This document shows positions 51,668-56,653 of a stretch of DNA of 64,000 nt, piece by piece. A model generated the notes under the pieces. That model ran no database searches and was not told the DNA's origin. It was given only the letters and a program-made list of their open reading frames with translations. Numbering within the stretch: position 1 is the first letter of the stretch; each line of letters starts with the position of its first letter. The position numbers were made by a program, and so were the translations under genes. Location: positions 1 to 64,000 of the forward strand of contig NZ_CP141821.1 in assembly GCF_035621495.1 (NCBI RefSeq), written 5' to 3'. Origin of the DNA: Thermococcus sp. SY098 (lineage in GTDB: Archaea > Methanobacteriota_B > Thermococci > Thermococcales > Thermococcaceae).

Positions 51668-52258
51668 TCACAACCTCCTGAAGTTCGCTAAGAGCTTTAA
51701 CCCAACTCTGCTCGATTTTTCTGGGTGGAACTGAACCGCGTAGACGTTGTCTCTGCATACTGCAGAGGTAAAAATCACTTCGTTGCCCTTCGACTGATAG
51801 TCTGTAACCCCTGCGACTATGCTCTTGTCTTGGGGATCTGCGTAGTAGGAGTGGACAAAGTAGAAATAAGCTCCATCCTTTATGCCTTCAAAGAGCTTGC
51901 ATTCTTTCTTCTGCCACACCTGATTCCATCCGATGTGCGGTGTCCTAACGCCTCTAAAGCGCACAACTTTGCCTTCAAACACGCCAAGTCCTTTACTCCC
52001 TGGACTCTCTTCACTCTCTTCAAAGAGCAGCTGAAGCCCAAGGCATATGCCAAGGAAGAGTTTTCCGTCGTTTATGGCATCTATGATAACTCCCCTCAAA
52101 GGTTCAAGCTTCTCCATCACAGCTCCAAAGTTTCCAACGCCAGGCAAAACTATTTTCTCGGCTTTCTCTATTTCATAAGGATCGCTCGTAATGACTCCAC
52201 CTAAAGCTTTTCTCACGTTGGCTAAGTTGCCGATCCCTAAATCAACTATTGCTATCAC
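51668..52258 (-). CDS. hisH: Imidazole glycerol phosphate synthase subunit HisH
   Basis: Class I glutamine amidotransferase supplying ammonia to HisF. The 196-residue protein has the triad in FLGICLGLQLLFEESEE (Cys) and VQFHPEKSSRVGLKLL (His, Glu), and the oxyanion LPGVGNFGA. GTG 52258 follows GGGGGTGTTGTA. It lies after the only large gap among the his biosynthetic genes. Confidence 0.95.
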   Translation of the reverse strand: MIAIVDLGIGNLANVRKALGGVITSDPYEIEKAEKIVLPGVGNFGAVMEKLEPLRGVIIDAINDGKLFLGICLGLQLLFEESEESPGSKGLGVFEGKVVRFRGVRTPHIGWNQVWQKKECKLFEGIKDGAYFYFVHSYYADPQDKSIVAGVTDYQSKGNEVIFTSAVCRDNVYAVQFHPEKSSRVGLKLLANFRRL

Positions 52259-52270
52259 TACAACACCCCC

Positions 52271-52438
52271 TCAGCCCTTTGCTTCGCATGTTGGGACAAA
52301 GTCCCAACACGTCGGGAAGCTTTGCTTCCCACGAAGCGCTGGCGGAAATTTTTCACCTGCCAAGGGCTTGTCCTCACAGTTGGTGTTCCAATATGCCTTT
52401 TGAGTGCATTTTAGGGTGCTCTCTACGGAATTTCCCAT
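52271..52438 (-). CDS. Possible 55-aa ORF filling the hisB-hisH gap
   Basis: ATG 52438 directly follows the hisB stop, with GGGGGTG five bases upstream inside hisB, and the frame stays open for 55 codons to TGA 52271, twelve bases before hisH. The product begins MGNSVESTLKCTQ, ends FVPTCEAKG, and contains four Cys and two Trp but no recognised domain. Much of its DNA is the palindromic element described separately, so the ORF may be a by-product of an inserted repeat. Real translation is uncertain. Confidence 0.3.
   Translation of the reverse strand: MGNSVESTLKCTQKAYWNTNCEDKPLAGEKFPPALRGKQSFPTCWDFVPTCEAKG
52273..52368. repeat. Nested palindromic element in the his operon
   Basis: Perfect inverted repeats nest here. 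The outer arms are AGCCCTT (52273-52279) and AAGGGCT (52362-52368). Inside these, GCTTCG (52281-52286) pairs with CGAAGC (52332-52337) and encloses two hairpins: GTTGGGAC-AAA-GTCCCAAC (52290-52308) and GGGAAGC-TTT-GCTTCCC (52314-52330). A three-way junction would result in RNA or cruciform DNA. TTTGCTTC also occurs twice as a direct repeat (52278 and 52321). GC-rich within AT-rich surroundings, it looks like a small mobile palindromic element or a processing structure. Confidence 0.65.
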
Positions 52439-52969
52439 TCACAGCACCCCCTTAGTGCTCTCCAACCGCTCACCCTCACTCAAAGCTTGTCTCAAAGCAA
52501 TACCGAGTCCCTTAAATGTAGCCTCGACTATGTGATGTGCATTAACTCCAGCCAATTGCTTCACGTGGATTGTGGCATTTAATGTCCTTGCCAAAGCCCA
52601 GAGAAATTCCCTAACTAACGTAACCTCGAACCCTTCCTCGCTCTCCTTTATATCGAGCTCAAGGTTAAGGTATGGTCTTGAGATGTCAACGGCGACAAGG
52701 ATTAACGCATCATCCATCGGCATTATTGCGCTCCCAAAGCGTGCTATTTTTTTGCCCTTGATCTTCTCCCTGAGCTCTTCGCCCATGGTAATGCCCAAAT
52801 CCTCCCACAGGTGGTGCCTTAAGTCATAGCTCGCTTTAATGTTAATTTTCTCACGCATGTAAAAGAATAAAGCGGTAAGGAGGTGGTCAAATATCCTGTC
52901 CCCTGTTTCTATGCTTCCCTCAACACCGACCTCAACAATTATATCGGTCTCTTTCGTTTTGCGCCTCAT
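52439..52969 (-). CDS. hisB: Imidazoleglycerol-phosphate dehydratase
   Basis: Manganese enzyme of step 6, monofunctional (no phosphatase domain). The 176-residue protein has [15 protein letters not shown], the metal motif [16 protein letters not shown] and the second [18 protein letters not shown]. It is somewhat shorter than most homologues (about 190). GGAGGTC precedes ATG 52969, overlapping hisD by four bases. Confidence 0.95.
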
Positions 52970-54099
52970 TTTCTGACCTCCATTGACTTCTTGTGCATCT
53001 CCATTCCCTCTATCTCTGCCAGCCGAATTCCGAGATAGCGCTCGCTTAGGAATTCTCCTTTGCTTACGTAGGCTAAGCTTATTCTCTTCATGAAGTCCAT
53101 GACTGTTAAAACCCCGCTGAACTTTGCAGCTCCCCCGGTTGGCAGAACGTGATTAACTCCAAGGAAATAATCAGCCGCCGGCACAGGTGTGTATTCGCCG
53201 AGATAAATCGCTCCGGCATTTTCAATTAAATCTACGAGCTTCAGCGGTTCCTTCGTGATTATCTCCAAGTGTTCTGGAGCTATCTCGTTAGCTTTTTCGG
53301 CACATTCCTCCAAGCTTTCACACACGACAACTTCAATTCCGTCCCTTCTGCAGTACTCCGCTAATTCCTTTGAAGTCGTTAAAAGCCAAGCTTTGCTGTC
53401 TTTTCCGTGCTCCAGCTGGGAAAGCAAATCGTATAAAACATACTCCTTATTCGCTGTCTCATCGGCTATAACGGCTATCTCTGATGGTCCAGCTAAGCTG
53501 TCAATTCCTACAACACCAAAGACCTGCCTCTTCGCTTCGTTCACGAACTTATTGCCTGGACCGAAGATTTTGTCTACTTTCTTCATTCCAATTCCGTAAG
53601 CCATTGCTCCAATCGCTTGAATCCCACCGAGCTTGTAGACCTCTTCGATGCCGAGAAGCTTTGCAACATACAGGATGTACGGATTGATTTTGCCGTTTTT
53701 AGGTGGTGTTGTAACCGCTATCTCTTTAACACCTGCTACTTTTGCTGGAACTCCCACCATCATGAGCGTCGAAGGCAGAGGTTTTCCTCCAGGGACGTAG
53801 ATACCGATTCTCCTTATCGGCTTGTAGATTATACCATAAAGTGAAGCGTTCTTTATGTAGAGCTTATCGCTCTCAAGTTGTTTTTCGTGGTAAAGGCGGA
53901 TTCTTTCTATGGTGCGCTTGATTATCTCTTTGTCCTTCTCTGGAATCTGCCTCTCTGCTTCTTCAAACTCCTTCTCACTAACAAGGAATTCCCCATCATA
54001 GCCGTCAAACTTCCTTGAGTATTCCTTTACAGCTTCAATACCCCTTTCCCTTATGTCTTTCAAAATTTGAGCCACATAGCTTTCTAACTCAAGATTCAT
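52966..54099 (-). CDS. hisD: Histidinol dehydrogenase
   Basis: Zinc- and NAD-dependent final two oxidations to histidine. The 377-residue protein shows [20 protein letters not shown]-type central segments, [44 protein letters not shown] with zinc ligands, and PEHLEI. C-terminal [16 protein letters not shown] is also typical. It is about 50 residues shorter than bacterial HisD. GGAGGTTATC precedes ATG 54099. Confidence 0.95.
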
Positions 54100-54706
54100 C
54101 TTTGATAACCTCCTTAATTTTTAAAACAAGCTCGTTAATCTCCTTAAACTTCGTCTTCTGGGAGATTCTGTTCACCAAAAGCAAAGCCGAAACATCCATA
54201 ATCTTCTCCACCTCAACTAACCCATTGGCTCTCAATGTGTTTCCTGTCTCGACAATGTCAACGATGGCATCTGCAATGCCAATTTTTGGGGCAAGCTCAA
54301 TGCTTCCGTGAAGCTTTATCACCTCGACCTCAACCCCTCTTTTCTCAAAGAACTTCCTTGTAAGGTTTGGGTATTTGGTGGCTATTCTAAAACCATCCAT
54401 CTCTTCAACGCTGACTGCATTTTCCTTGGGCATCGCCAAGCTTAAGCGGCACTTTCCAAAAGGCAACTCAAGAGGAACGAGGACGTCACTTTCCCTTTCC
54501 TCAACAACATCGCTTCCAGCTATCCCAACATCAACACCATACTCGACGTAAACCGGGACATCAAAAGCCCTTGCAAGGAGAAGCTCATACCTGCCGTTTT
54601 TCACAATCAGTTCTCTGTTCTCTGGCGGTTTAAGTTCAATCCCGGCTTTTTGCAGAATTTCAAGGGAACCCTTGAATAGCCGTCCTTTTGGGAGAACAAA
54701 CCTCAT
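54089..54706 (-). CDS. hisG: ATP phosphoribosyltransferase catalytic subunit, short form
   Basis: First step of histidine synthesis. The 205-residue protein begins [18 protein letters not shown] and has [13 protein letters not shown] and the PRPP loop [19 protein letters not shown]. It lacks the C-terminal regulatory domain of long HisG proteins, so it is a HisGS enzyme that needs HisZ, encoded immediately upstream. It overlaps hisZ by four bases. Confidence 0.95.
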
Positions 54707-55593
54707 TCTTCCACCTCCACCGGAATACCGAGTTTCACGAGTTCCCTCGCAAGTTTGTATGCTTCTTTCATCTCCCCTCTGATTCTCTTTCTGCTCTTCT
54801 CTATTTTCCCATCAAAGAGCTTTGAGAGGGCATTTAAGTCGAATGCAAATCCAAAAGCGCTGACTCCCTTGAAAGTGTATTCCCCTCCGCCTCCGAGCGG
54901 CTTTCCAACTCTTGGAGAGTAGACCTCAAAGATTATGTCGCTATAGTAAGGAAGGGGTCTTATTGTGCCGAAATCTATAAAGACTCTCTCATCGTCGACT
55001 GCCTCAATAATTTTGTTAAGCTTTTCATATTCACAGCTCTTTCCTCTGAAATTAAAGAGCTGCCAGAGCTCTTCTTTCTTCTCCTCATTTATAGGCAGTC
55101 TTTCGATGATTTCAAAGTTTCTTCGTGTTAATGCCCTGAAAATTTCTGCTTTGAATTCTTCAATTCCCTTAATTGCTTCCTCCCAAACCTTTAAGCTGCC
55201 GACATCGATGTAGAAGTCCTCGATACCGAGCGCTTCCAAGGAAGTTATAACAGTTAAAAGAACCTCGACCTGCATTTTAATGTCATCTCCTCCGATGAAC
55301 TCAACTCCAGCCTGCCAATCTCCTTTAATCCCACCGTTCAGCACTTCGCTGATGTAGTAGACCTTAAGTCTCCTTGGCTCTTTGAGGTTTGCAAGGATCT
55401 GGGATGTTAGGTCGGGCTTTATTACATAGAATTCATTGTTGTAGGCAAATTTTGTCCCTTTCCTAAGCTGCTCACTGAACTCCTCTATTGTCGGCAAGAA
55501 TATCTCCCTATAGCCCCAAAGCTCGAATGTTCGTCTTAAATACTTTGTAATATCCGCTAACCTCTCTGATTCGGAAAATAAATCCTTCTTCAA
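54703..55593 (-). CDS. hisZ: ATP phosphoribosyltransferase regulatory subunit HisZ
   Basis: A HisRS-like paralogue without tRNA charging function that activates and confers histidine feedback on short HisG. The 296-residue protein retains class II traits: motif 1 [32 protein letters not shown], motif 2-like [10 protein letters not shown], and C-terminal [17 protein letters not shown]. It is shorter than typical bacterial HisZ (about 390) and HisRS and has no anticodon domain. TTG 55593 is the start, set by GGAGG at 55601-55605. It heads the his operon. Confidence 0.9.
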
Positions 55594-55616
55594 AATAATC
55601 CCTCCAAGAACTTTTC

Positions 55617-55654
55617 AATAAAAATATCCCCTGCTAAATAGTGTCCAACTAAGC
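55617..55654 (-). other. Imperfect stem plus U-tract between leader ORF and hisZ
   Basis: On the transcript, GCTTAGT (55654-55648) can pair with ATTTAGC (55639-55633) with one mismatch and one G-U around an eight-base loop, followed nine bases later by TTTTT (55624-55620). A weak stem followed by a U-tract upstream of the first structural gene could act as a transcription terminator or pause. The pairing is weak by eye, so the function is hypothetical. Confidence 0.3.
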
Positions 55655-55671
55655 TAAGTACTTCAGAACAG

Positions 55672-55770
55672 TCAATGATGATGGCAGTAGCTCACCAGAA
55701 GAGCGATGGAAAATCCAACCTCTCCCCCAAGGCTTATGCTTCTTTCGCTGTTTACTCTCCACTCTCTCAT
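55672..55770 (-). CDS. Putative histidine operon leader peptide (32 aa, ends HHH)
   Basis: A 32-codon minus-strand ORF lying wholly within the his leader. ATG 55770 is preceded, seven bases away, by GAGGTG; the product begins MREWRVNSER and ends LLVSYCHHH, and the three His codons (CAT at 55683-55675) are followed at once by TGA. The TATA box at 55803-55810 puts it on the his transcript, and hisZ begins 78 bases after its stop. Consecutive regulatory codons near the end of a short leader ORF are the hallmark of ribosome-mediated attenuation in bacteria; in archaea this is not established. It could instead be a small protein of unrelated function. Confidence 0.6.
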   Translation of the reverse strand: MREWRVNSERSISLGGEVGFSIALLVSYCHHH

Positions 55771-55800
55771 TTTAAACACCTCAACATCCAATGTTCCGTA

Positions 55801-55817
55801 CCATATATAAGTTTAAC
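55801..55817 (-). promoter_or_regulatory. Promoter of the his operon
   Basis: On the minus strand, GGTTAAACTTATATATGG contains a clear TATA box (TTATATAT at 55810-55803) with an upstream BRE-like GTTAAAC. The transcript start expected near 55780 is just before the GAGGTG site of the leader ORF, so the leader peptide would be the first thing translated. Confidence 0.65.
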
Positions 55818-55864
55818 CTATGAAAGTTTGCCAATATGACAAAGATTTGCGAAAAATATTAGGT

Positions 55865-56653
55865 CTAAAGGGAAGCCAGCTCAAAGATAAGCTCAGCTTT
55901 GGAACAGTATTTTTTCAATCTTTCTTTAACTTCTGCATGCTTTCCAAGAACGGGCCAGAGAATTGAATCTATGTGAAGAGGTGGAATATTGACCTCTTTT
56001 GCAATCCTTGACCAGAAGCTTGTGGGTAGCTCGTTCGTAAATCTATTTGTATAGGCATTTATTCTCACATCATCTGGAATTTCAATTTCCATTGGATAGG
56101 GAATGAACTCCCTAAATGCTATCCTGCCCGCATACCCAAACATCTTCACAGCAAAGACTATTGTTTTGGCATTTCGTTTGGAATTCAGCACTTTTGCAAG
56201 GTCGTTCCTTAGAGATGTCATTGAATAGTAGTAATTTTTGAGGTCTTTAAGTTTAAGCTCAGCCAAGAAAGGCTCAAGCTTTTCAAGCCTTTTAATTTTT
56301 GCAGCTGTCAGCCTTCTGTTAGTTTTTGACTCTGCTAAAAACCTTGAATAAGCATTGACAATCCCTATTTCTGGGGGATTCAATGAAAAATGCTCTGCAA
56401 ATTCCCACCACCACTCTTCTCCAGTGGCTGTCAGCTGATAACTGACTATTGCATTGGCAATTACGAGCTTTATGAATAGCTCATCGTTTTTGAGATTTTT
56501 GTGAAGATACTCCAGAGCTGAAAACTGCAGATCAACTTTCTCCTCGATAGTTCTGGCACATTCTATGCCCAACTCTTTAAGGATTTCCTTTAATCTCTCG
56601 ATTTTTGGCTTGTTCTCCTTGTGTTTGACTGTGATGAAGCGGTCGAGGGTCAT
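55865..56653 (-). CDS. N-glycosylase/DNA lyase, AGOG type
   Basis: Archaeal 8-oxoguanine DNA glycosylase/AP lyase removing oxidised guanine from DNA. The 262-residue helical protein has the family HhH region, here KTIVFAVKMFGYAGRIAF followed by IPDDVRI. Lys163 and Asp195 are 32 residues apart, the spacing reported for the catalytic Lys/Asp pair of the Pyrobaculum enzyme. EEWWWEFAEHF and the C-terminal PPLHIDSILWPVLGKH are further AGOG features. It starts two bases after the beta-RFAP synthase gene and is co-transcribed with it. Confidence 0.9.
   Translation of the reverse strand: MTLDRFITVKHKENKPKIERLKEILKELGIECARTIEEKVDLQFSALEYLHKNLKNDELFIKLVIANAIVSYQLTATGEEWWWEFAEHFSLNPPEIGIVNAYSRFLAESKTNRRLTAAKIKRLEKLEPFLAELKLKDLKNYYYSMTSLRNDLAKVLNSKRNAKTIVFAVKMFGYAGRIAFREFIPYPMEIEIPDDVRINAYTNRFTNELPTSFWSRIAKEVNIPPLHIDSILWPVLGKHAEVKERLKKYCSKAELIFELASL

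Follow-up and report, generated by a model that had tools for sequence, protein, structure and literature searches.

The his operon of Thermococcus sp. SY098 is probably governed by a leader-peptide attenuator, in which a shortage of charged tRNA-His would stall a ribosome at terminal His codons and thereby free the translation of hisZ. The putative leader is a short ORF upstream of the operon, and its parts are listed in Table 1. The window, i.e., the whole stretch of DNA that was analyzed, is 64,000 nucleotides long. On its minus strand the order is a TATA-like box, a GAGGTG Shine-Dalgarno (SD) sequence, the leader ORF, a 78-nt spacer, and hisZ-hisG-hisD-hisB-hisH. The leader ends with TGC CAT CAT CAT TGA. 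An earlier sequence-only reading had named the TATA box, the GAGGTG site, the 32-codon ORF and the Cys-His-His-His preceding TGA, and its coordinates proved exact on this strand. The first gene of the operon, hisZ, encodes the HisRS-like regulatory subunit of ATP phosphoribosyltransferase (its score falls under the strict NCBIfam cut-off and over the Pfam tRNA-synt_His cut-off). Among the 648 ATG-started ORFs of 10–45 codons in the window, the HHH ending is unique to the leader. The SD energy of the window's leader is −9.5, vs. a mean of −1.9 for random ATGs.

Table 1. Features of the his leader region and operon in the window.
Feature	Position	Strand	Remarks
TATA-like box TTATATATGG, his promoter	55801..55810	-	consensus
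Leader Shine-Dalgarno, GAGGTG	55777..55782	-	
Leader ORF, 32 codons plus TGA, MREWRVNSERSISLGGEVGFSIALLVSYCHHH	55672..55770	-	frame kept in relatives
Leader ATG	55768-55770	-	stop ends at 55672
Conserved CTTCTGGTGAG within leader, candidate alternative anti-SD	55691..55701	-	consensus folds, clades A, H, I
Three CAT (His) codons, putatively regulatory	55675..55683	-	
Post-stop motif CTGTTCTG, candidate anti-SD	55664..55671	-	TTCT core
hisZ Shine-Dalgarno, GGAGGG	55600..55605	-	
hisZ, TTG start at 55591-55593	54703..55593	-	family models
hisG, hisD, hisB, hisH, later genes of operon	51668..54706	-	family models

The leader recurs at every his locus of the Thermococcaceae that was readable. Orthologs of hisZ were collected from 38 genomes of the family in a first search, and further ones came from a scan of genome contigs and a hisG search. 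With duplicates removed, 47 loci were readable upstream of hisZ, and all 47 carry a short ORF that finishes with 2–4 His codons or has them within a few codons of its stop. As a check, the sequence-only reading had asked whether such an ORF recurs in relatives with its His ending conserved and its other residues drifting. This is what the alignments show, with the reading frame kept. The N-termini of the leaders are unalignable between clades. The frame of the His codons is open in 44/44 scored loci, vs. 0/44 for the +1 frame and 10/44 for the +2 frame. An SD energy of −6.9 or lower, which 5% of random ATGs match or better, precedes the leader in 91% of the 44 loci. A TATA-like box lies roughly 35–50 nt 5′ of the leader ATG in 43 of them, a distance that accords with the short 5′-UTRs of T. 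kodakarensis (median 16 nt; PMC4247193).

The way in which these sequences change is that of a translated frame with little demand on its residues. Substitutions between close relatives, counted in gap-free ORF pairs, number 63, 72 and 73 at codon positions 1, 2 and 3, and because they are spread so evenly the leader residues appear hardly constrained. All five indels inside alignable ORF pairs are in frame, vs. 2 of the 19 just upstream (p = 0.0005; two unalignable pairs were set aside). The His codons of the leaders are almost all CAT (108 CAT:2 CAC), vs. 206:243 in the long frames of the same loci (p ~1e−28). TGA is the leader stop in all 44 scored loci, and in several clades it lies 2–3 codons past the His run, giving the endings HHLF, HHPF and HHRLF. 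The leader can be as short as 11–12 codons (MMPLTYRLHCHH, locus L039). In a pattern search of the family's genomes, a 16-base core pattern matched almost only at the leader site. The sequence comparison strongly supports a conserved ORF that lies first behind the promoter, ends in His codons, and is constrained in its frame though not in its residues.

Two peculiarities of the leader end were noted. A single locus, L027 (G037, a metagenome-assembled genome, MAG), has lost the stop right after HHH (TGA to TGC), so that the ORF runs on for a few codons. Since the genome is a MAG, this is possibly a sequencing error. In most loci the CATTGA sequence also supplies a TTG start codon that overlaps the stop of the leader (55672-55676 in the window) and opens a second mini-ORF beginning MT[VLI]L. 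We rejected this mini-ORF as a candidate element, since in most cases it stops far short of hisZ, and loci whose leader stop has moved do not have it.

We propose that the leader ORF is the sensor of the his-operon attenuator. The mRNA from the his promoter would carry it as the first cistron. When histidine is plentiful, ribosomes would read through the terminal CAT codons and come off the mRNA at TGA. The TTGAC-N-TTCT-G sequence at and behind the stop, and the CTTCYGG of the leader, could then pair with the SD and start region of hisZ, and this pairing would keep hisZ translation, and the operon along with it, low. Under a shortage of charged tRNA-His, a ribosome would stall on the CAT codons and cover the pairing elements. 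The TTCT core is 6–13 nt from the A site and would fall inside the footprint of the stalled ribosome, leaving hisZ free for translation. Translation of the leader and stalling of ribosomes on it are inferred, and the sensing of charged tRNA-His is very probable on the pattern of sequence conservation.

How a stalled ribosome would be translated into operon output is less clear-cut. Occlusion of the hisZ SD is the leading candidate, at roughly even chances. All aligned loci have TTCT at 3, 6 or 9 nt past the His run, and thus without exception in phase, and this motif can pair with the hisZ SD. In consensus folds, the partner of the hisZ SD is the post-stop sequence for clades B, C, D, F and J, whereas for clades A, H and I it is the CTTCYGG inside the leader. 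The SD/post-stop pairing has z-scores of −1.5 to −3.9 in clades B and C. An arm-swap test for coevolution of SD and anti-SD gave no overall signal (P ~0.4–0.6) and was positive in clades B and E only, and covariation in clades A and B combined was no better than in shuffled sequences. With the region covered by a His-stalled ribosome masked, the SD became only slightly more accessible on average (0.32 vs. 0.26). Energy parameters for 37°C are doubtful near 85°C. The support is mixed, with effects that are weak or missing in the other clades, and SD occlusion appears plausible in some clades rather than as a general rule.

The chief rival to SD occlusion keeps the sensing of charged tRNA-His and places the output at transcription, via termination at a U-run or factor-dependent polarity before hisZ. 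Thermococcus is known to couple transcription to translation and to show polarity, and a T-run of at least 5 occurs in 14 of 44 leader-hisZ spacers, the window's included. The other 30 have none, and because such runs are confined to so few spacers, intrinsic termination is unsupported as a common output. Some spacers are just 24–32 nt long, which gives a terminator little room, and consensus folds yielded no recurring terminator hairpin between the leader and the first gene. Simple polarity also has the wrong sign, since a stalled ribosome should expose more naked RNA. We consider a transcriptional output unlikely. The sequence-only reading had offered control of either downstream transcription or hisZ access, and access is the likelier of these because the spacer has no consistent intrinsic terminator.

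Three further rivals were considered. A nascent arrest peptide of the TnaC or SpeFL kind, which would respond within the exit tunnel to histidine or some other ligand, would make the residues before the His codons matter. The invariant TGA across the 44 loci fits this idea, as does the C-terminus, which loosely follows the pattern V-S-Y-[CYR]-HH(H), but those residues vary widely (VSYC, VTYY, VIYC, VDYC, RVSL, SDSC), a leader of 11–12 codons would have to suffice in one locus, and the DNA letters are conserved at least as strongly as the peptide. We regard an arrest peptide as improbable. It is more improbable still that the conserved stretch is a protein-binding site in DNA or RNA, or an antisense C/D RNA, with the ORF incidental. 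The GTGAGCTAC.GCCATCAT and TTCT sequences are indeed conserved as letters, and there is a weak Rfam match to sR35 on the other strand, at 15.6 bits vs. a gathering score of 60. However, such a site would leave unexplained why an ATG, an SD and an open frame are retained across ~60–75 nt of unalignable upstream sequence, why the indels are in frame, and why the His run has 2–4 codons. Least credible of all is a leader that does not sense histidine and only boosts hisZ translation as ribosomes terminate and re-initiate. The overlapping TTG would lend itself to this, and for bacteria it has been proposed that leader cistrons enhance translation (PMC4833913). Yet the second mini-ORF mostly ends well short of hisZ, and re-initiation explains neither His codons at the end of the his leader nor the Ile/Leu/Val codons found before ilv (see below).

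Similar His leaders occur beyond the family. In six genomes of another family of the same class, a leader ending in HHH, HHN or HHQ lies ~30 nt before hisG. These genomes encode a long HisG and have no HisZ match. All six carry mcrA and are therefore methanogens, probably Methanofastidiosales. One of their leaders reads MGIINENVKFDSSIILSCTAHHH up to the stop. Directly 3′ of the leader stop, a small hairpin of the form ACGCC-loop-GGCGGAGG (CGCC/GGCG) extends into the hisG SD, and only 1–5% of shuffles of each sequence reached equal stability. When longer context was folded, an SD-freeing effect was not clear for most of the methanogen loci. The methanogens have a second hisG paralog, and no His leader was found in its vicinity. 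In a neighboring phylum (that of genome G095), ~28 readable hisG loci yielded no comparable His leader. In several of the methanogen leaders (loci L132–L134 and L243–L245), the start sequence AUGGGCA or AUGAGCA can pair with UGCCCA or UGCUCA just 5′ of the His codons. This start-region pairing forms a series of G-C, G-U and A-U variants and resembles the 1:2 stem of bacterial attenuators.

A comparable leader precedes another amino-acid operon. A short ORF with many codons for Ile, Leu and Val toward its end lies upstream of ilvB-ilvC in five genomes, which appear to be Pyrococcus/Thermococcus (loci L122–L126 in G012, G007, G020, G016 and G051; a sixth genome was left out). The leaders include MNVRTSTLTFMSSLPLTLAILILLVIIIIIILI, MNTLNLHPRTILQTLLIVILVIIIIIIRA and one ending in IIIGLIILL, each followed by a stop. 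The assignment of start codons and SDs is less secure here than for the his leaders, and folding with a stalled ribosome gave no SD-freeing effect in 4/5. A perfect hairpin, CCCGGC-CAA-GCCGGG, comes immediately after the G051 leader. A sensor that detects charged tRNA by ribosome stalling would need just such features, with His codons closing a conserved but otherwise drifting leader in front of his, and Ile/Leu/Val codons in front of ilv. The chances seem evenly divided that the class Thermococci, methanogens included, possesses a general system of ribosome-stalling leaders, covering at least his and ilv, that would act on translation initiation and not through a bacterial-type terminator. 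At the positions examined, we saw no Trp leader before trpC (12 genomes) or before trpE of the class relatives, and no Thr, Ile or Met leader before hom. No aromatic leader was seen before aroF, which, like several of the other genes that gave negative results, lies inside an operon; the true 5′ ends of these operons were not always reached. Upstream of trpC (L055–L064), several Thermococcales share a TGTCCAAA-type element beside the promoter, which may be a repressor site.

In bacteria, leader-peptide attenuation is a classic mode of gene control, and the principle itself is old. Like the bacterial his, ilv, leu, thr and trp attenuators, the archaeal leader is an SD-led short ORF with a run of cognate codons between the promoter and the first gene, and his and ilv versions occur within one lineage. 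It differs from them, e.g., from the enterobacterial his leader, in being archaeal, in carrying its His codons right before the stop, and in lacking a consistent terminator hairpin and U-run. The Rfam His_leader model had no match up to E = 5 in 55400–55900, and no other Rfam family matched there. The proposed freeing of the next gene's SD by a stalled leader ribosome is shared with erm-type translational attenuators, but here the stall would be caused by the lack of a charged tRNA and not by a drug, and SD occlusion is predicted in some clades only. The his T-box riboswitches of Firmicutes and Actinobacteria resemble the leader as proposed sensors of tRNA-His charging, but they contain no leader ORF, and the T-box model did not match at the his leader. 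DNA-binding regulators such as TrpY and the Lrp family are known to control amino-acid operons in archaea. The his leader would likewise control amino-acid biosynthesis, through the ribosome rather than through protein-DNA contacts at initiation.

What would be new is its use in Archaea, where the bacterial terminator apparently plays no part. The sequence-only reading knew of no established archaeal leader-peptide attenuator, and we likewise found none in the open-access literature searched. A his leader in the Thermococcaceae and in methanogen relatives, together with its ilv counterpart, would show that Archaea read amino-acid supply via a stalling ribosome. T. kodakarensis is genetically tractable.

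A his operon resembling that of the Thermococcaceae was also encountered outside the Archaea. A Caldiserica MAG (L051) has a hisZ-hisG-hisD-hisB-hisH run behind an aro-type gene. No leader was found upstream of hisZ in this MAG. Its HisZ is 52% identical to the archaeal protein, which suggests transfer between the lineages, or else a binning error.
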